Below are positions 45,628 to 55,329 of a stretch of 64,000 nucleotides of DNA, piece after piece. Source of the DNA: an uncultured Opitutaceae bacterium. GTDB taxonomy: Bacteria; Verrucomicrobiota; Verrucomicrobiia; Opitutales; Opitutaceae. Position numbers and translations under genes: made by a program. Under the pieces are notes generated by a model, which did no database searches, was not told where the DNA came from, and was given only the letters and a program-made list of their open reading frames with translations. Location: the NCBI GenBank assembly GCA_903891325.1, contig CAITEC010000029.1, positions 64,539-128,538 on the forward strand, written 5' to 3'. Position 1 is the first letter of the stretch, and the number at the start of each line of letters is the position of its first letter.

Positions 45628-45667
45628 GGCGGGCCGCCTAGGGGTAGGCGGCCCGCCACATTTTTTT
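45628..45667 (+). terminator. Rho-independent terminator
   Basis: A perfect 13-bp stem (GGCGGGCCGCCTA at 45628-45640 and its complement at 45645-45657) with a GGGG loop, followed by ACA and seven T's (45661-45667). It ends the plus-strand BlaI/BlaR1/secreted-protein operon. The minus-strand cysI stop lies in the T run; the stem could also end that operon, but there is no good T run on that side. Confidence 0.9.
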
Positions 45668-47420
45668 AGATCTGGGTGCCGGCGACCTTGTCCGGCTCGT
45701 GGAAGTCGATCGGCGTCCCGGTCGGCTTCACGTAACCGGCCCGGATCACGAAGTCGCCGAAGCGCTCCCCGGCATTCCGCTCGACAGCGTAGCGCCGCAG
45801 GATCGGGCGAAGCAGGGGCGCCAGCTCCGCGGAGGGGACCGACGGGCGGTAGAGCGCGTTCATGCGGGAGCCGTTGAAAGCCGCGCCAAGGTAGACGTTG
45901 TACTTGCCGGGCGCCCGTCCCACGAAGGCAATCTCCGCCAGGTAGGGCCGGCCGCAGCCGTTCGGGCAGCCGGTCATCCGGATGATGATGCCGTCGTCCC
46001 GCAGGCCCGCCGCCTCGACCTCCGTGTCGAGCTCGGTGATCAGGTCGGGGAGGTAGCGCTCGCTTTCCGCGAGCGCCAGCCCGCAGGTCGGCAGCGCCAC
46101 GCAGGCCATCGAGCCCAGTCTAAGTCCGGTCGCGTTGTTCGCCCGGTCCAGCTTGTGGACGCGGAGGAGTTCCTCGATCCGCGGGCGCTCGGCCGGCGTC
46201 ACCCCGGCGATCATGAGGTGCTGGTTGGGCGTGAGCCGGAAATCTCCCCGGTGCACCTTGGCGATCTCGCGAAGCCCCGTCTTCATGGCGTACCCGGGCG
46301 TGTCCTTCACGCGGCCGTTCTCGATGAAGAGCGTGTAGTGGGAGGCCCCGCCGATCCCGTCCACCCAGCCGTAGCGATCCCCGGTGTGGGTGAACTCGAA
46401 GCGCCGCGGCGTGGCCAGTTCGTAACCAAGCCGGCTCTGCAGCTCGGTCCGGAACCAGGCGAGGCCGCGGTCGGCGATCGTGTACTTGAGCCGGGCGTGC
46501 TTGCGGTCGGTCCGGTCGCCGTAGTCGCGCTGGACCATGACGATCTTCTCGGCGATGTCCGCCAATTGGTCGGGTCGGCAGAATCCCAGGACGTCGGCGA
46601 CGCGGGGAAAGGTCTCGACCTGGTTGTGGCTCATCCCGAGGCCCCCGCCGACGGTTATGTTGAACCCGGCCAGCCTCGGCTCGCCGGGGCCCGCGTTCTC
46701 GTTGGGCACCGCGATGAACCCGAGGTCCTGGCCGAAGATGTCCACGTCGTTGCTCGGGGGGACCGCGACGACGATCTTGAACTTTCGCGGGAGGTAGGTC
46801 TTCCCGTAGATGGGCTCGACGTCCGGCTCGCCGCCGGCGGCCAGTTCCCCGTCGATCCATATCTCGTGGTAGGCCTTTGTCCGCGGGGTCAGGTGGTCGC
46901 TGAGCGCCCGGGCCGCGGCCAGGGTCTCGGCGTGCAGCTCGGACTGGTCGGGATTGGGATTGCACATGACGTTGCGCACGACGTCGCCGCAGGCGGCGAT
47001 TGTCGTCAGCAGCATCCGGTTGATCTCCTTCACCCCGGCCCGGAGCTTTCCCTTGATGACGCCGTGGAGCTGAAAAGCCTGCCGGTTTGTCAGCTTCAGG
47101 GTGCCGTTGGCGTGGGAGTCGGAGAGAGCGTCCAGGGCCAGCCACTGGGCGGGGGTGCAGACCCCTCCGGGGACGCGGATCCGCGCCATGAAGATGAACG
47201 CCTTCTCCTTGCCCTCCTTCCGGCGCTGGGCGCGCAGGTCGCGGTCGTCCTGGGGATAGACGCCGTGGAATTTCATGAGCTTGGCGCTGTCTTCGGTGAC
47301 GGTCCCGGAGACCGTGTCCCGCAGTTCCGCATCGATGTTTCCGCGAAGGAAATTGCTGCCGGCCTTCAGCTCCTCGGCCTTGTCCAGCGGCTTGGTTGTG
47401 TCCCCGGGATTTGTGCTCAT
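45666..47420 (-). CDS. cysI: Assimilatory sulfite reductase hemoprotein
   Basis: 584 aa. It holds both halves of the siroheme/Fe4S4-binding site: CVALPTCGLALAESE (about residue 440) and TGCPNGCGRPYLAE (about residue 483). The protein reduces sulfite to sulfide. The ATG at 47420 overlaps the TGA of the upstream cbiX-like gene (ATGA). It is the last gene of the sulfate-assimilation operon and its siroheme is probably supplied by the two genes before it. No flavoprotein subunit (CysJ) is in the window, so the electron donor may be ferredoxin or another reductase. Confidence 0.95.
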   Translation of the reverse strand: MSTNPGDTTKPLDKAEELKAGSNFLRGNIDAELRDTVSGTVTEDSAKLMKFHGVYPQDDRDLRAQRRKEGKEKAFIFMARIRVPGGVCTPAQWLALDALSDSHANGTLKLTNRQAFQLHGVIKGKLRAGVKEINRMLLTTIAACGDVVRNVMCNPNPDQSELHAETLAAARALSDHLTPRTKAYHEIWIDGELAAGGEPDVEPIYGKTYLPRKFKIVVAVPPSNDVDIFGQDLGFIAVPNENAGPGEPRLAGFNITVGGGLGMSHNQVETFPRVADVLGFCRPDQLADIAEKIVMVQRDYGDRTDRKHARLKYTIADRGLAWFRTELQSRLGYELATPRRFEFTHTGDRYGWVDGIGGASHYTLFIENGRVKDTPGYAMKTGLREIAKVHRGDFRLTPNQHLMIAGVTPAERPRIEELLRVHKLDRANNATGLRLGSMACVALPTCGLALAESERYLPDLITELDTEVEAAGLRDDGIIIRMTGCPNGCGRPYLAEIAFVGRAPGKYNVYLGAAFNGSRMNALYRPSVPSAELAPLLRPILRRYAVERNAGERFGDFVIRAGYVKPTGTPIDFHEPDKVAGTQI

Positions 47421-48259
47421 TTGAAGAAAAGGGTGGAGCCTTCCAGGGCGGTGCGCAACCTGCGGCTCAGGATTTCGACGGCGAGCGGGTGGGTGCCCAC
47501 CAGCTCCGCGAAGTGGCAGCGAAGGCCCGGCCGTCTCGCCGCCGCGGCGCGGGCGATCGTCGACAGGTCGCCGCCCAGGCCCGCGTGGCGGCCCGGTGAG
47601 AGAAAGAGGGGGGCGATCACGACGTCCCCGTCCGCGAAACCCGGGCTCTCGAGCAGCTCGGCGAAAAGCGGCCGGTTGAACGCGAATTCCGGGCCCTCCG
47701 GCGTTTCCATCGAGGCCGCGGCCAGCCGGCTGGCGGCAGCACCCAGGCGAAGGCGCACCCCGGCGGCGACCGCGTCCCGCAGTCCGGCGGAGGCGCGGGA
47801 GGGACCGCCGTGGTCGACCACGATGACTGCCGGCGAGCGAAGGCCCTCGGCCGCGATCACCTCCCGCACGCGGGCGGCGACAATTTCGGCGAGCGGCGCG
47901 GCGTTGTCCCCGGAGTCGTCGGCGATGCTTCCGGTGAATTGGACGGTGACGTCCGGCAGGTCGCCGGCCACTGCCTCGACCTCGGCGCGGAGCGCGGAGC
48001 CGACGGCGCCCTGCGAGCTGATGAAGAAGGGGATGAAGGTGAAGTGCCGCTCGCCGGCGGCGACCTGTGAGCGGATCCACGGGCCGGCGGTCCAGGCGGC
48101 AACGCCGTCCAGGTCGGCGGCCGGAATCCGGTCGCTGTGCTTCCAGGAGACGGCTTCCATCGGAATGCCCGCGGAACGGCCGATCGCCGCCGCCACCGCG
48201 CGAAGATTGCGCTGGGAGGCGGGCTCGAGCGAGCCGTTGTCGATCAGGGCTGCTTTCAC
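47417..48259 (-). CDS. cbiX: Sirohydrochlorin chelatase-like (CbiX) protein
   Basis: 280 aa from a GTG at 48259 (VKAALIDNGSLEPAS). Two related halves, as in long CbiX proteins. The second half keeps the chelatase His in VIVVDHGGPSR. In the first half the equivalent of GHGS reads DNGS, with Asn in place of His. The family inserts Fe or Co into sirohydrochlorin; next to SUMT and cysI, iron for siroheme is the likely metal. The start is four bases after the SUMT stop and the end overlaps cysI. Confidence 0.82.
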   Translation of the reverse strand: MKAALIDNGSLEPASQRNLRAVAAAIGRSAGIPMEAVSWKHSDRIPAADLDGVAAWTAGPWIRSQVAAGERHFTFIPFFISSQGAVGSALRAEVEAVAGDLPDVTVQFTGSIADDSGDNAAPLAEIVAARVREVIAAEGLRSPAVIVVDHGGPSRASAGLRDAVAAGVRLRLGAAASRLAAASMETPEGPEFAFNRPLFAELLESPGFADGDVVIAPLFLSPGRHAGLGGDLSTIARAAAARRPGLRCHFAELVGTHPLAVEILSRRLRTALEGSTLFFK

Positions 48260-48263
48260 GGGG

Positions 48264-49061
48264 TCAAATGGAGCAGGAGGCGGTGATGGAATTCTCGAAC
48301 CAGGAGAGGTCGCGCGAGAGCGCGGCGACCTCGCCGACAATAACCATCGCGGGCGCCTTGACACCCTCCTCGCGGGCCCGGGAGGCGAGCGTGCCCAGCG
48401 TGGCCAGGACGGTGCGGTGTTCACCTGTGGTCGCCGACTGGACGAGGGCCGCCGGGGTCTCCGCGGACATGCCCCCGGCCAGGAGCCGGTCGGCGATCGC
48501 CTCGAGGTTGCGCATGCCCATGTAGATGCAGAGAGTCGCGCCGATCCGGGCGAAATCCTCCCAGTGCACGGAGGCATCCGGCTTGGAGGGATCCTCGTGG
48601 CCTGTCAGGAGGACCACGGCGGAGCTGTGGGAACGGTGGGTCAGGGGAATTCCCGCATAGGCCGCCGCCGCGAGGGCCGACGTCACGCCGGGCACGACTT
48701 CAAAGGGCACGCCGGCGGCGACCAGGGCGGCGGCCTCCTCCCCGCCGCGTCCGAATATGAACGGGTCGCCCCCCTTGAGCCGGACAACCCGCTTACCCTG
48801 GCGGGCGAGGGCGATGAGCATCGCATCGATCTCCGGCTGGGTGCAGCCGGGCACGCCGGCTTTCTTTCCGGCGAATACCCGCTCGCAGTCCGGCCGTGTC
48901 TTCCCGAGCACGTCGGGCGACACGAGACTGTCGTAAACGACGGCGTCGGCCTCCGAGAGGAGGCGCAGGGCCTTCAGGGTGAGGAGTTCCGGATCACCCG
49001 GCCCGGCGCCAACGAGGAAGACGCGGCCTGCGGCCGGGCTGGGGGCGGGCGTGATGTCCAT
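48264..49061 (-). CDS. cobA: Uroporphyrinogen-III C-methyltransferase
   Basis: 265 aa from the ATG at 49061. VFLVGAGPGDPELLTLKA, VVRLKGGDPFIFGRGGEE and VVPGVTSALAAAAYAGIPLTH are the S-adenosylmethionine-dependent SUMT blocks. It makes precorrin-2, the first step towards siroheme. Only the methyltransferase domain is present; the CysG dehydrogenase domain needed to form sirohydrochlorin is absent here and must come from elsewhere or from the CbiX-like protein. Five bases separate it from cysNC. Confidence 0.93.
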   Translation of the reverse strand: MDITPAPSPAAGRVFLVGAGPGDPELLTLKALRLLSEADAVVYDSLVSPDVLGKTRPDCERVFAGKKAGVPGCTQPEIDAMLIALARQGKRVVRLKGGDPFIFGRGGEEAAALVAAGVPFEVVPGVTSALAAAAYAGIPLTHRSHSSAVVLLTGHEDPSKPDASVHWEDFARIGATLCIYMGMRNLEAIADRLLAGGMSAETPAALVQSATTGEHRTVLATLGTLASRAREEGVKAPAMVIVGEVAALSRDLSWFENSITASCSI

Positions 49062-49066
49062 GAGGG

Positions 49067-51013
49067 TCAGATGTCGGCGCCGGCGCCATTTTCCGGGATC
49101 GGGGGACGGGCCAGGGCCAGCGCGAGATCGGCGAGCTTCTCGACGGACTCGCCCACGGGAACCTCGTCGGTCCGCAGCTCGAGGTCGGGCGCCAGCGGGG
49201 CCTCGTAGGGCGAGTCAATCCCGGTGAAGAGCGGGATCTCTCCGGCGCGCGCGCGCTTGTAGAGCTGCTTGGGGTCCCGGCGCTCGCATTCGGCCAAGGG
49301 AGCGTTGACGAAGACCTCGGCGAAGGGAATGCCGCGGTCGGCCGCCCGCTTGGCGGCCATGGCCCGGTCGGCCCGGAATGGCGAGATGAGGGCCGCGATC
49401 ACGACGACACCCGCGTCGGCAAGGTGCAGGGCAAGCTCGATCGCCCTGCGAAGGTTTTCCCGGCGGTCCTCGGTGGTGAATCCGAGGTTCCGGCTGAGGC
49501 CGGTCCGCAGCACGTCGCCGTCGAGGACGGCGGCAAGCACCCCGGCCCGCAGGAGGCGTTTCTCAAGTTCCTGGGCGAGCGTGGACTTGCCCGAGCCGGA
49601 GAGCCCCGTCATCCAGATGACCGTGCCCCGGTGCCCGAGCAGGGCGACCCGGTTGGCCGACAGGCCCCCGCCGCCGACCGCGTCGTCGCGAAGCGCTGCG
49701 TCAATGACCCCGCCGCCGGCGATCCGACGCCCCCGCATGAGGACGAAGCGGCCGAGCGCCGGCAGCCGTCCGCCCGCGTCGAAGGCCAGGGGACGGCGCA
49801 TCCGTATCCGAACCTCCGCGACCTCGTGCCGCTTGACCTCGGTCGCCGGCCCGGTGGAGGCGTCGAGGGTGACCGCGTCGAGCGTGCGCTCGATGGAGGC
49901 GATCCTGCCCTCGCCCTGCTGGGCCCCGAGGCGCAGGGGGACAAGCTCCCCGACCTTCAGGGAATCGGCATGCAGCCAGAAGACCCGGGCCGTGAAGTAA
50001 TAGGAGACCGACGGGGGATCCTCGGGCGGTCCGCCGATCTGGCCGCGCTCGATGAACAGTTCGTCGGCGAGGGTGATTGCCGTGCTCCGGCCGGCGCCGA
50101 CCGGGCCCTTGGGCGTCGATCCGTCCGCCCGCGCGGGCCACTCCTCGATCGTCTTGATGACCGAGTGCTTTCCCCCGGGAAAGAACTCGATCCGGTCGCC
50201 CACGGAGAGGCTGCCGGCCTCGACCAGGCCGGCGACGATCCGGCGGGCGTCGAAGCGGTAGACGTCCTGCACCGTGAGGCGCAGCGGCGCCCCGGCGGCC
50301 GGCGGCGTGGAGCGGAACTGCTCGAGGGCCTCGAGGAGCACGGGGCCCTTGTACCAGGAGAAGTGCTCGCTGCGGCTGATCAGCCCGTAGCCAAGCTTGG
50401 CGGAAATCGGTACGATGTGGGTGGGCGGGACGCCCAGCCGGCCCAGGAACTCGCGCAATTCGGCGCTGATCGAGTCGAAGACCTTCTGGTCGTAGTTGAC
50501 CAGGTCCATCTTGTTGACCGCGACGACGATCTGCCTGAGGCCCAGCAGCGAGAGCAGGAAGCCGTGGCGGCGGGTCTGCTCGCGCAGGCCCTCCTTGGCG
50601 TCGACCAGCAGGACCGCGGCGTCGGCGCTGGCGGCGCCGGTGATCATGTTCTTGAGGAATTCCTTGTGCCCGGGGGCGTCAATGATCGTGTAGGCGCGGC
50701 GATCGGTCCGGAAGGGGACGCGCGTCGTGTCCATCGTGATGTTCTGGGCCTGCTCCTCGAGGAGGGCGTCCATCAGGAAGGCGTACTCAAACTCCATTCC
50801 CTCGGCCTTGCAGGCCGCCTGGATCCTCTCGGCCTTGCCCTCCTCGACGGAGTGGGTGTCGAAGAGGAGCCGGCCGATCAGGGTGGATTTCCCGTGGTCG
50901 ACATGCCCCACGACCACGAATGAGAGGTGGGGAAGGGCCGGCGCCGTGCCTGCGGAGGGGGCGGCGGCGGCGGGCGCGCCTGCGGGAAGGGTGGTGTCGG
51001 AAAGTTTGGTCAT
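49067..51013 (-). CDS. cysNC: Bifunctional ATP sulfurylase subunit 1 / APS kinase
   Basis: 648 aa fusion. The N-terminal part is the EF-Tu-like GTPase CysN, with [11 protein letters not shown] at residues 34-44. The C-terminal part is APS kinase, with P-loop [10 protein letters not shown] near residue 471 and the DGD and [10 protein letters not shown] blocks. It activates sulfate to APS with CysD and then phosphorylates it to PAPS. The fusion and the PAPS-type reductase upstream agree that PAPS is the intermediate. The ATG at 51013 is the start; an Ala/Pro-rich extension precedes the GTPase. cysD is 34 bases upstream. Confidence 0.96.
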
Positions 51014-51047
51014 GGAGATGGGTCTTGGATTGGGTTCCGGGCCGGGT

Positions 51048-51851
51048 TCACATGAACCCCTTGGCACGCAGCTTCTGCATCGCGTTGCGCTCATGGTGAT
51101 CCTGTGCGCGGCCCGCGCGCTCGGAAATGCGCGTCACCTTGAGCTCCTCGATGATGTCGTCGATCGTGGTTGCGTTGCTGTCCACCGGCTTGCTGATCGG
51201 CATGCAGCCGATCGAGCGGAAGCGCTTGCCGTTGCGCGAAAAGTACATGCCGGGAAGCGGGACCTTCTCCTGGTCGAGGTAGCGCCAGATATCCATCTCC
51301 GTCCAGTCGAGCAGCGGCTGGACGCGGACGTGCTCGCCGGGCCCGACCTCGGTCGTGAAGTGGTTCCAGAACTCCGGGGGCTGGTCCTTGTAGTCCCACT
51401 CGAAATCAGCGGTGCGCGGCGAGAAGGCGCGCTCCTTGGCGCGCGTCGAGTCCTCGTCGCGCCGGATCCCGGTGATCAGGGCGTCATACTTGTGGTGGGC
51501 GAGGGTCTGCTGGAGCGCCACGGTCTTCAGTTCGTGGGTGACGGTGACCGGGTCGGTCGTCTCATAGCCGATTCCCCGGGCCCGCGCCTCCTCGTTGATC
51601 CAGACGACCAGGTCGAACCCGTAGTGGTCCCGCGCCCACGACCGGAACTCGAGCATCTCGGGAAACTCGTAGGTCGTGTCGATGTGCACGATCGGGAAGG
51701 GGATGTTTCCGCAGAAAGCCTTCTTCGCCAGCCAGAGCAGGGCGTTGGAGTCCTTGCCCATTGACCAGAGCATGGCCGGCCGCTCAAACGCGTGATAGGC
51801 CTCGCGGAGGAGATAGATGCTGTTGGATTCGAGTTCGTCGAGGTGAGACAT
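51048..51851 (-). CDS. cysD: ATP sulfurylase subunit 2 (PP-loop)
   Basis: 267 aa from the ATG at 51851. The PP-loop SMGKDSN is at residues 30-36, and [13 protein letters not shown] is a CysD signature. With CysN it adenylates sulfate to APS, driven by GTP hydrolysis. The start lies 20 bases after the cysH stop. The order cysH-cysD-cysNC is typical, and the spacing indicates one transcript. Confidence 0.96.
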
Positions 51852-51871: not shown

Positions 51872-52594
51872 TCAGGCGCCCGGGGAGCCCTCGTGGATGC
51901 CGCATTCGCGCTTCAGCCCGAAGAAACGGGTCTGCTCGGGGCTCAGGTCGGCGGTCAGGGGGCGGGAGGTGTGGGTGTCCCCGATCGAGACATATCCCTG
52001 GTCCCAGAGCGGGTGATAGGGCAGGTTGTTTCGCGTCAGGTACCCGTGCACGTCGCGGTCGCTCCAGTCGACGATGGGCAGGATCTTCGCCCGGCCGTCC
52101 TGGGTGCCGACCAATTCGAGGGCCTCCCGGCTGCCCGATTGCGCCCGGCGGAGCCCCGAGAGCCAGGCGGTGGCGCCCAACTCGGAGAGCGCCCGCTGCA
52201 TGGGCTCGACCTTCGCCAGGCGGTTGTACGCCTCGATGCCCTCCAGGCCCTTTTCCCAGAGCTTTCCGTGCCGCGCCTCGAGCCATGCCGGCGAAACCAG
52301 CGGGCGGTAGACCTTCAGGTTCAGCTTGAGCCGGCTCGTGAGCTCGTCGGCAAAGCGGTAGGTCTCCGGGAAGAGGTAGCCGGTGTCGATGAACACCACG
52401 GGAATTCCAGGTATGACCTGGGACACCAGCCCGAGCATGACCGCGGCCTGCGCCCCGAAGCTTGAGCTCAGGACCAGTCCGCCGCCGTACTCCCGGGCGG
52501 CCCAGGCGATCCGTTCCTCGGCGGGTTCGTGGGACAATTTCCCGTTCACCGCGGCGAGGTCGACCGCGGGTGAAACTTTGTCCGCAATCGCCAT
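51872..52594 (-). CDS. cysH: Phosphoadenylylsulfate (PAPS) reductase
   Basis: 240 aa from the ATG at 52594. [12 protein letters not shown] is the substrate loop, [13 protein letters not shown] the PAPS-binding segment, and Cys231 in ECGIHEG the catalytic cysteine. The paired cysteines of the iron-sulfur APS reductases are absent, so PAPS is the substrate. It reduces PAPS to sulfite with thioredoxin. There is no clear ribosome-binding site before the start; instead the stop of a cysteine-rich leader ORF lies three bases upstream, so translation may depend on that leader. Confidence 0.95.
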
Positions 52595-52597
52595 CGT

Positions 52598-52678
52598 TTA
52601 ATCTGAGCAGCAGCAGGCACACGCGGCGCAGCGCACTGCGGAGGATGCCTGGACGATGGACGCAGACGAAAGATTCAT
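52598..52678 (-). CDS. Cysteine-rich leader peptide upstream of cysH (putative attenuator)
   Basis: A 26-codon ORF, ATG at 52678 and TAA at 52600-52598, three bases before the cysH ATG. The N-terminal part (MNLSSASIVQ) is polar; the end reads CAACACCCSD, with Cys at 17, 20, 22, 23 and 24. An in-frame TAA lies nine bases before the ATG, so this is the only ATG start. It precedes a cysteine-biosynthesis operon, as expected for a sensor of Cys-tRNA supply. Known mycobacterial parallels are leaderless ORFs with runs of Cys codons before sulfur genes. A short CTG repeat in the DNA is an alternative explanation of the CCC run. Confidence 0.7.
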   Translation of the reverse strand: MNLSSASIVQASSAVRCAACACCCSD

Positions 52679-52688
52679 GCGAGTGGTT

Positions 52689-52717
52689 TAAATTGGGCGA
52701 CTCCCGGCGAATGTCAA
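52689..52717 (-). promoter_or_regulatory. Promoter of the sulfate-assimilation operon
   Basis: On the minus strand a consensus -35 TTGACA (52717-52712) is followed by a 17-base spacer and a -10-like AATTTA (52694-52689; ATTTAA with an 18-base spacer is also possible). Transcription would start near 52681, only a few bases from the leader ATG at 52678. No Shine-Dalgarno sequence precedes that ATG, so a leaderless mRNA is likely. Confidence 0.6.
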
Positions 52718-52838
52718 TACGCTACGTTTCCCCCCGCCGGGGCGGCGCCGGCAGAGTGCGGATAATGCGTATTTGAAAATTCATTTCTAGACATTTGGCC
52801 CGGATGCTGCTCAGTTATTAACAAGATATCCACAACTG

Positions 52839-54383
52839 ATGGAAAACCCCCGAGGGGCGACCGCCCCAAATCCGCGGATTAGGGTTTCGGCAAAAGTGAA
52901 GACCTTCGTGCTGGACACGAACGTCCTCCTCCACGACCCGCAGGCGATCTTCAACTTTCAGGAGAACAACCTGGTCATTCCCGTCGAGATCCTCGAGGAG
53001 CTCGACACGATCAAGAGCGAGCAGTCCACGGAGCGGGGCCGCAACGCCCGCCGGGTCCACCGGATACTCCAGGAGCTGCTGCCCGACACCCGCTCGATGC
53101 ACGAGGGCGTGGAGCTGCCCAACGGCGGCGCCCTCTCGATTGTCATCAATCCCTACCTGGCCGACCCCTCCCGCCGCTCGCCGGCGATGGATCGGCTGCG
53201 CGCCATCCTTCCCGACCTCACGAAGAAGGACAACCGGATCATCGCCGCCGCCCTCTTTGTCCAGGAGCAGTTCCCCCCGCCGACGATCCTGGTCACCAAG
53301 GACGTCAACATGCAGCTGAAGGCCCGCGCGGTCGGGCTGGAGTCTGAGGACTACCTCACCGACAAGGTCCCGGAGAACGTCGAGGAGGCCAGCTACCGTG
53401 AGATCCCGCTCACGATCTACGACATCCAGCGATTCTGCTCGGAGGGGAACTTCACGCTCGGGCGCGAGGCCGCCCGGGGACTTTACCTCAACGAGTACGT
53501 CCTCCTCCGTTCCGACGAGGGGAAGACGATGCCCGCCCGCTACCACGGGGACAACATCGTCCGCCGGCTGAAGTTGCCCGAGTACGTGAAGGCGCCCGGG
53601 GGCATTCCGATCCGCGCGCGCAACCTCGAGCAGCAGTTTTTCATGGACGCGCTCCTGGACGACTCCGTCCAGATGCTCACCTGCTTCGGCAAGGCGGGCA
53701 CCGGCAAGACGCTCCTTTCCGCCGCCTGCGCGCTCCACCAGACCCAGGAGGAGCACTCGCGCTACGACGGCGTGTCGATTTCCCGGCCGGTGATCGCGCT
53801 GGGGCGGGACATCGGGTTCCTCCCCGGCACGCTCGACGAGAAGATGCGGCCGTGGCTGCAGCCCTATTACGACGCCTTGGAGGTTCTCATTCCCTCGAAG
53901 CCGCCAAAGGATCCCCAGTTTGCCTCGAAGAAGGTCTCGAAGAAGAAGTTCAAGAAGCACGAGGACCATTCCCATTCCATGTCCGGGGGCGGATCGGGCT
54001 ACGGGAGCCAGGGGTCGGGCGGCGGCCACGGCCACCTTCCCCTTGCCAAGCCCTACGAGCGGCTGCTCAAGTCCGGGCTGGTGGAGATCGAGGCCCTCTG
54101 CTTCATCCGCGGGCGCTCGATCGCGCGCCGGTTCTTCATTTTGGACGAGGCCCAGCAGTTGACGCCGCACGAGGTGAAGACGGTGATCACCCGGATATCG
54201 GAGGGCTCGAAGATCGTCCTGATCGGCGACCCGACGCAGATCGACAACCCCTACGTGGACGCCCGAAGCAACGGCCTGGTCTACTGCCACAACCGGATGA
54301 AGGGCCAGGCGATCGCTGCCCACGTGAAGCTGATGAAGGGCGAGCGCTCCCGCCTCGCCGAGCTCGCCGCCGACCTGCTCTAG
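52839..54383 (+). CDS. PhoH2-type protein: PIN domain plus PhoH ATPase
   Basis: 514 aa. The N-terminal PIN nuclease domain begins VKTFVLDTNVLLHDP (Asp near residue 26), with further acidic residues in KKDNRIIAAAL and LVTKDVNM. The C-terminal PhoH domain has the Walker A GKAGTGKT (about residue 287) and a Walker-B-like FILDEAQQLTPHEVKT. PhoH2 proteins unwind and cut RNA. Between Walker A and B there is a low-complexity insert with KKVSKKKFKKHEDHSHS and a run of Gly, Ser and His. The gene is divergent from the cys operon and the only one in its direction until the tRNA. Confidence 0.92.
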   Translation: MENPRGATAPNPRIRVSAKVKTFVLDTNVLLHDPQAIFNFQENNLVIPVEILEELDTIKSEQSTERGRNARRVHRILQELLPDTRSMHEGVELPNGGALSIVINPYLADPSRRSPAMDRLRAILPDLTKKDNRIIAAALFVQEQFPPPTILVTKDVNMQLKARAVGLESEDYLTDKVPENVEEASYREIPLTIYDIQRFCSEGNFTLGREAARGLYLNEYVLLRSDEGKTMPARYHGDNIVRRLKLPEYVKAPGGIPIRARNLEQQFFMDALLDDSVQMLTCFGKAGTGKTLLSAACALHQTQEEHSRYDGVSISRPVIALGRDIGFLPGTLDEKMRPWLQPYYDALEVLIPSKPPKDPQFASKKVSKKKFKKHEDHSHSMSGGGSGYGSQGSGGGHGHLPLAKPYERLLKSGLVEIEALCFIRGRSIARRFFILDEAQQLTPHEVKTVITRISEGSKIVLIGDPTQIDNPYVDARSNGLVYCHNRMKGQAIAAHVKLMKGERSRLAELAADLL

Positions 54384-55258: not shown

Positions 55259-55329
55259 GCGGCTGTAGTTTAGCGGTAAAACTCCTGCCTTCCAAGCAGG
55301 TATCCGGGGTTCGATTCCCCGCAGCCGCA
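55259..55329 (+). tRNA. tRNA-Gly (anticodon TCC)
   Basis: A 71-base cloverleaf. The acceptor stem GCGGCTG (55259-55265) pairs with CAGCCGC (55322-55328), followed by discriminator A. The anticodon stem CCTGC/GCAGG encloses the loop CTTCCAA, anticodon TCC, reading GGA. The T arm is GGGG-TTCGATT-CCCC. The CCA end is not encoded. It lies between two toxin-antitoxin systems. Confidence 0.97.

Follow-up and report, generated by a model that had tools for sequence, protein, structure and literature searches.

A short cysteine-rich leader open reading frame (ORF) precedes the cys operon of an uncultured Opitutaceae bacterium. Judged from its sequence and from that of its relatives, this leader ORF is real, and it probably acts in cis as a Cys-tRNA-responsive attenuator of the operon. 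As all 14 species with this version of cysH have retained the leader, whereas the remainder of its sequence has drifted, we regard it as very probably a cysteine sensor controlling cysteine synthesis. Our proposal for how it would do so is more tentative: attenuation at almost zero distance, by means of three interchangeable GCGG repeats within the first 16 cysH codons, which would replace the operator-like site of related loci.

Results

A cysteine-rich leader ORF adjoins cysH

Within the window, that is, the whole stretch of 64,000 nucleotides analysed here, the leader ORF occupies positions 52598–52678 on the minus strand and consists of 26 codons and a stop (MNLSSASIVQASSAVRCAACACCCSD*), with counterparts in 13 other species. 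Direct reading bears out the position and length given in the preliminary description, as well as the five Cys among the last ten residues, and supplies the strand that was missing there, which is minus (52678→52598). Codons 22–24 (TGCTGCTGC; 52607–52615, minus strand) are the presumed sensing codons, and further Cys codons are found at 17 and 20. Counted back from the stop, codon 23 is position −4, which is Cys in all 14 species. The element formed by the leader stop and the spacer (52595–52600, minus strand) comprises the TAA (52600–52598) and three nucleotides, ACG (52597–52595), after which cysH starts with ATG at 52594; the previously reported gap of three bases is thus correct.

The gene that is presumed to be regulated, cysH (51872–52594, minus strand), encodes a phosphoadenylyl-sulfate reductase (NF002537, E 1.3e-85). 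It is followed on the same strand by the remainder of the presumed operon (45666–51851), with cysD (51851–51048, named from its translation), cysNC, a uroporphyrinogen-III methyltransferase gene, an ORF region and the sulfite reductase gene (47420–45666); the cysNC, methyltransferase and sulfite reductase genes were confirmed. Given that these downstream genes make sulfide for cysteine, the amino acid that would be sensed fits the pathway. A PhoH2-like gene (52839–54383, plus strand; NF053827, score below its cut-off) is divergent from the cys operon. Over the whole window, the only match to Rfam at the gathering score was a tRNA at 55259–55329, and no family covered the leader region.

The preliminary description had also noted that cysH has no visible Shine-Dalgarno (SD) sequence, and indeed a search of the region before cysH detected none in the 11 genus species tested, the best duplex energy being −1.7 kcal/mol. 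SD-less starts are nevertheless common among related cysH genes, and the missing SD is therefore weak evidence for a coupling between leader and cysH. Moreover, the Cys content of the window leader taken alone is only mildly unusual when compared to dinucleotide shuffles (P 0.046). The case for the leader thus rests on the comparison across species.

The Cys tail and its distance to cysH are conserved

Our sample of the genus, to which MAGs such as Opitutaceae bacterium palsa_1447 and palsa_1380 belong, comprised 13 species, and 11 of them have this cysH. A leader ORF of 20–26 codons was present in 11/11, with 3 or 4 nt between its stop and the cysH ATG. The leader tails in the genus include CACCCSD, GFCCCPN, RACCRLP, RCCCPLH, CACCCPN, ARCCLY, CACCPLP, DCCCPF, VCCLLQ, ARCRLN and VCCCPQ. 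A comparison of the window species with L003, for instance, shows a peptide that differs nearly throughout, with CCCxx* and the spacer length unchanged. A sequence model of the leader and the cysH start, run on 120 family genomes, revealed a second genus with the element, and a search for cysH over 252 family genomes revealed a third. These two additional Opitutaceae genera contribute 3 species with the leader, with tails CVCCCFD* (L176), ACCCCFD* (L178) and VCCCVF* (L177) and stops 3, 3 and 2 nt before cysH, respectively.

The preliminary description had proposed a comparison with related genomes, looking at the start, the frame and the terminal Cys codons. In the 14 species, the start codon, frame, terminal Cys codons and distance to cysH are kept, and the surrounding DNA changes. 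The start is ATG, or probably GTG in two species that both lie outside the genus of the window, and the distance from the stop to the cysH ATG is 2–4 nt in 14/14. Cys is found at position −4 from the leader stop in 14/14 species, at −5 in 12/14 and at −3 in 9/14. The last 11 residues hold 50 of the 53 leader Cys of the 14 species; CysH itself contains 15 Cys in 3304 residues. When the three frames were compared in 11 species, 38 Cys codons were counted in the last 11 codons of the leader frame vs 2 and 4 in the other two. Pairwise pN/pS among the genus species was 0.69 in the leader frame, whereas the other frames gave 0.96 and 0.88; in the middle of the peptide it reached 0.97. These values indicate a leader whose body drifts but whose Cys tail is retained, and in the same place.

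The mild excess of Cys over shuffles in the window could be taken to favour a chance ORF or a CTG microsatellite, the latter of which had been predicted to vary in frame at random. This explanation is refuted by the comparison and retains a negligible probability: frame, terminal Cys codons and stop distance are kept in 14 species, with Cys restricted to one frame, and the microsatellite is thereby ruled out. A functional small Cys-rich protein (a metal, redox or thiol carrier) would agree with a Cys-rich C-terminus kept in 14 species, yet it is very improbable given the variable length (20–26 residues), the freely variable body, a number of Cys that ranges from 2 to 6 per species, and Cys residues that keep a set distance from the stop and from cysH instead of a set place in a fold.

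The leaders of three species contain no more than two Cys each, and for two of these, L004 and L010, Cys content by itself does not exceed that of shuffles. In the leaders of L003, L007, L010, L011 and similar ones, Arg codons (CGC/CGT) occupy places that are Cys codons (TGC/TGT) in other species, so that a single T/C substitution is enough to alter the Cys codon count.

Cys keeps its place with respect to the stop, as does the stop with respect to cysH, which suggests that selection acts on where a slowed ribosome is positioned. The very short spacing and the missing SD would also suit a leader that merely recruits ribosomes for the SD-less cysH, as an 'antenna' for reinitiation without cysteine sensing, a role proposed for close leader genes (PMC4833913). 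We consider such a role improbable, for it leaves unexplained the Cys at −4 in every species, and the concentration of Cys in the last 11 residues, in a set of genes that makes cysteine.

The leader is confined to one CysH clade

The upstream regions of 117 cysH loci were scanned, and removal of duplicates left 14 loci with the leader and 92 without it. A tree of 47 CysH sequences groups the 14 leader-bearing genes in a single clade (support 100/100); the leader is present in 14/14 members of this clade and in 0/92 other cysH loci. A scan of 112 cysH loci, including those of Gammaproteobacteria and other Verrucomicrobiota, yielded no comparable leader outside the genus before the second and third genera were added. 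Similarly, no convincing Cys leader was found near the cysK or sulfate-permease genes of the genus. L177 (G190:C106, genus g7) has a leader-type cysH that is 77% identical to the cysH of genus g46, and the other g7 species searched have a distant cysH (E about 1e-30). The leader and cysH of L177 are likely to result from horizontal transfer, or else from a binning error.

Loci of the family that lack the leader often show another kind of sequence. An operator-like sequence of the TTACTTAG/GTCCTAA type was found near the cysH start in 40/92 non-leader loci vs 0/14 leader loci (Fisher p 8.5e-4, uncorrected for relatedness). Palindromes of the type TTACTTAGGACATGTCCTAAGTAA were observed about 15–50 nt upstream of the homologous cysH start in many other Opitutaceae, among them L019, L020, L026, L192 and L201. 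Many family genomes encode short Rrf2 proteins (about 140–175 aa), which in several cases lie about 3–5 kb from a cysH of the distant type; leader-bearing members of the genus have only an Rrf2 of roughly 205–225 aa over the cut-off, or none. To link the operator-like site to Rrf2 is a guess. A swap of regulators at cysH, with the leader in place of the operator-like site, is possible.

Candidate promoter and conserved blocks upstream of the leader

By eye, a possible promoter was recognised on the minus strand at 52689–52717, with TTGACA (52717–52712) and AATTTA (52694–52689) separated by 17 nt; a consensus promoter scan called no promoter at the leader. A hexamer resembling TTGACA/TTGTMA lies about 39–44 nt before the leader start in 11/11 genus members, again as judged by eye. 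This candidate promoter would set the transcript start within a few nucleotides of the leader ATG, and it is possible that the leader is nearly leaderless.

A conserved TATGACA block lies further upstream than the hexamer in most members, and its extended form occurs only at cysH in the genus. L004–L012 have a CTATGACACGAATC block that precedes the leader start at a fixed distance of about 70 nt and that, within the genus, is restricted to cysH. CTATGACAC was considered as a regulon motif and rejected, as it occurs only at cysH within the genus. In L178 (genus g46), the perfect palindrome GCAAACGCGTTTGC adjoins the TATGACA block, with weaker forms in L176 and L177. A longer leader starting from the conserved ATGACA block was likewise rejected: the extension is without coding signal (pN/pS 0.86), and the window lacks the block, which in L003 and L178 does not share the frame of the leader. 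We read the ATGACA block as a DNA element.

No intrinsic terminator was found near the leader or the cysH start, and the only terminator-like site in 52400–53000 (52870–52849) lies upstream of the leader and is at the level of shuffles. Since there is no intrinsic terminator and only 3 nt separate the ORFs in the window, the leader is not a transcription attenuator of the trp type. This result would be compatible with a cysteine response through Rho, which would end untranslated cysH RNA, with translation of the leader and cysH deciding; Rho-dependent control has been suggested for mycobacterial cys leaders, also without terminators (PMC1262725). Alternatively, a slowed ribosome may cover the cysH start and lower cysH: when waiting at the Cys codons, it would be no more than about 18 nt away from the cysH AUG and could block it instead. 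A response of either kind appears somewhat unlikely, and steric blocking would give the physiologically wrong direction, with less CysH when cysteine is short.

Three GCGG repeats are conserved inside the start of cysH

The preliminary description had placed the whole device upstream of cysH. This is upheld for the leader, but a conserved nucleotide element was also found inside cysH. It consists of three GCGG repeats on the minus strand. Segment 2 (52582–52587, at +7, codons 3–5) reads TTGCGG in the window and CTGCGG in the 13 other species. Segment 3 (52564–52569, at +25, codons 9–11) is CCGCGG, or CTGCGG in two species, and segment 4 (52549–52554, at +40, codons 14–16) is CCGCGG. Identity at four-fold sites is 0.79 in cysH codons 2–21 compared to 0.48 elsewhere in cysH for the 14 species (0.81 vs 0.50 for 11 species). 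We then considered the 47 codon columns that are testable, i.e., those belonging to a four-fold box with the first two bases invariant. The third base is invariant in only three of them, namely cysH codons 4, 10 and 15, which are all GCG and fall one in each repeat (Fisher p 6e-5). Relatedness is controlled for here, because other invariant Ala codons in these cysH genes vary freely.

Motifs that are short, repeated and nearly invariant might form a protein-binding operator, in DNA or RNA, that is unrelated to the leader, and other Opitutaceae do have operator-like sites near the cysH start. We regard this as unlikely, as the repeats lie downstream of the start codon, are mutually complementary and occur in the same 14 loci as the leader.

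The three C[C/U]GCGG repeats are able to pair as 2:3, 3:4 or 2:4. In folding models with the RNA extending to +33 and a ribosome at the Cys codons, hairpin 2:3 is dominant in 13/14 species (P 0.83–1.0). When the RNA extends to +52, hairpin 3:4 reaches at least 0.5 in 12/14 species with the ribosome at the Cys codons, and exceeds 0.8 in 14/14 with the ribosome at the leader stop. Hairpin 2:3 begins at about +6 and would have to be opened by an initiating ribosome, while 3:4 begins at +25, outside such a ribosome. Compared to synonymous recodings, hairpin 3:4 shows a mild excess of strength (mean z −1.26) and 2:3 a weaker one (−0.78). Covariation is uninformative for these hairpins because the pairs hardly vary.

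Pairings between leader and cysH were at chance level relative to synonymous recodings. Three such long-range pairings, first spotted by eye or by RNAalifold, were dropped as no stronger than in the recodings: leader TCCGCA with cysH TGCGGA, leader AGCCTCCG with cysH CGGAGGCT, and the Cys codons with GCGGYGG.

A model for the control of cysH by cysteine

We infer stalling during leader translation, reinitiation and the direction of control, and propose the following sequence of events. Ribosomes would translate the 20–26 codon leader and terminate 2–4 nt before the SD-less cysH AUG. Judging by this spacing, cysH would be read mainly by ribosomes that reinitiate after the leader. Reinitiation is likely because cysH has no SD and a ribosome finishing the leader sits almost on the cysH AUG. 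The termination-reinitiation that had been suggested earlier is thus supported indirectly, by the 2–4 nt spacing and the missing SD, although the latter loses weight given how common SD-less starts are in related cysH genes.

The supply of charged Cys-tRNA would then set the waiting time of the ribosome at the invariant Cys codons. In silico, hairpin 2:3 is predicted to abut the AUG and to be the sole option until RNA polymerase passes about +45, after which hairpin 3:4 is predicted to replace it and free the cysH start. When cysteine is plentiful, a quick ribosome would meet 2:3 and be released, resulting in little cysH translation, perhaps with Rho-dependent polarity. When cysteine is short, a delayed ribosome would find 3:4 complete, and cysH translation would start. 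Equilibrium folding models would thus have low cysteine lead to more CysH, which is the direction expected physiologically. Such a hairpin switch inside cysH, whose timing would depend on the progress of RNA polymerase while the ribosome waits at the Cys codons, is one possible mechanism, which we put forward with clear reservation. The Cys-tRNA attenuator of the preliminary description is thereby supported in part, namely by the comparison of start, frame, Cys tail and spacing in 14 species.

Discussion

The leader described here would extend cysteine-codon leader control to Verrucomicrobiota, where it is confined to one CysH clade, with likely transfer into another genus; in the literature searched, we found no report of a cysteine-codon leader switch in this phylum. 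Moreover, the family offers a natural comparison between leader control and seemingly operator-based control of the same operon.

In attenuators of the trp/his type, regulatory codons in the leader are followed by mutually exclusive 2:3 and 3:4 hairpins. The arrangement proposed here is similar, with regulatory codons in the leader and then alternative hairpins. It differs in that the hairpins lie within the structural gene and that 3:4, which has no U-tract, is read as the ON state of translation and not as a terminator.

Polycysteine leader ORFs of cys operons were predicted in Actinobacteria (PMC1262725), and Canestrari et al. 2020 (doi 10.1111/mmi.14498) demonstrated such a leader in M. 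smegmatis, as related in PMC9031893, PMC9094748 and PMC13236596. As in the mycobacterial leaders, a short ORF with Cys codons near its stop precedes a sulfur/cysteine operon, there is no conserved terminator and translational attenuation is proposed. A leaderless start, which is a feature of the mycobacterial leaders, is here only a candidate, based on the upstream hexamer. In contrast to those leaders, the present one belongs to another phylum and is unrelated in sequence, its stop lies 2–4 nt from the gene in all species, and a conserved GCGG element is found inside the structural gene.

The uORFC-8-2 motif, which precedes cysS in Rhodobacterales, combines a uORF with tandem Cys codons and an intrinsic terminator (PMC8632094). 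Like the present leader, it is a short ORF in which a tandem pair of Cys codons, mostly UGC, is conserved (PMC8632094). However, the target of uORFC-8-2 is Cys-tRNA synthetase, its Cys codons lie in a stem and transcription is attenuated at an intrinsic terminator (PMC8632094), whereas in our case the gene is cysH and there is no terminator.

Finally, a survey of leader genes concluded that attenuation needs a long distance between leader and gene and held it to be impossible at short distance (PMC4833913). Our leader resembles the closely spaced reinitiation leader genes of that survey, since its stop lies a few nucleotides before the structural gene, but differs from them in that amino-acid-specific codons are conserved at a distance of 2–4 nt. 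If a regulatory RNA element inside the coding sequence does take part, as tentatively proposed here, the published argument against attenuation at a leader-gene distance of a few bases would be challenged.
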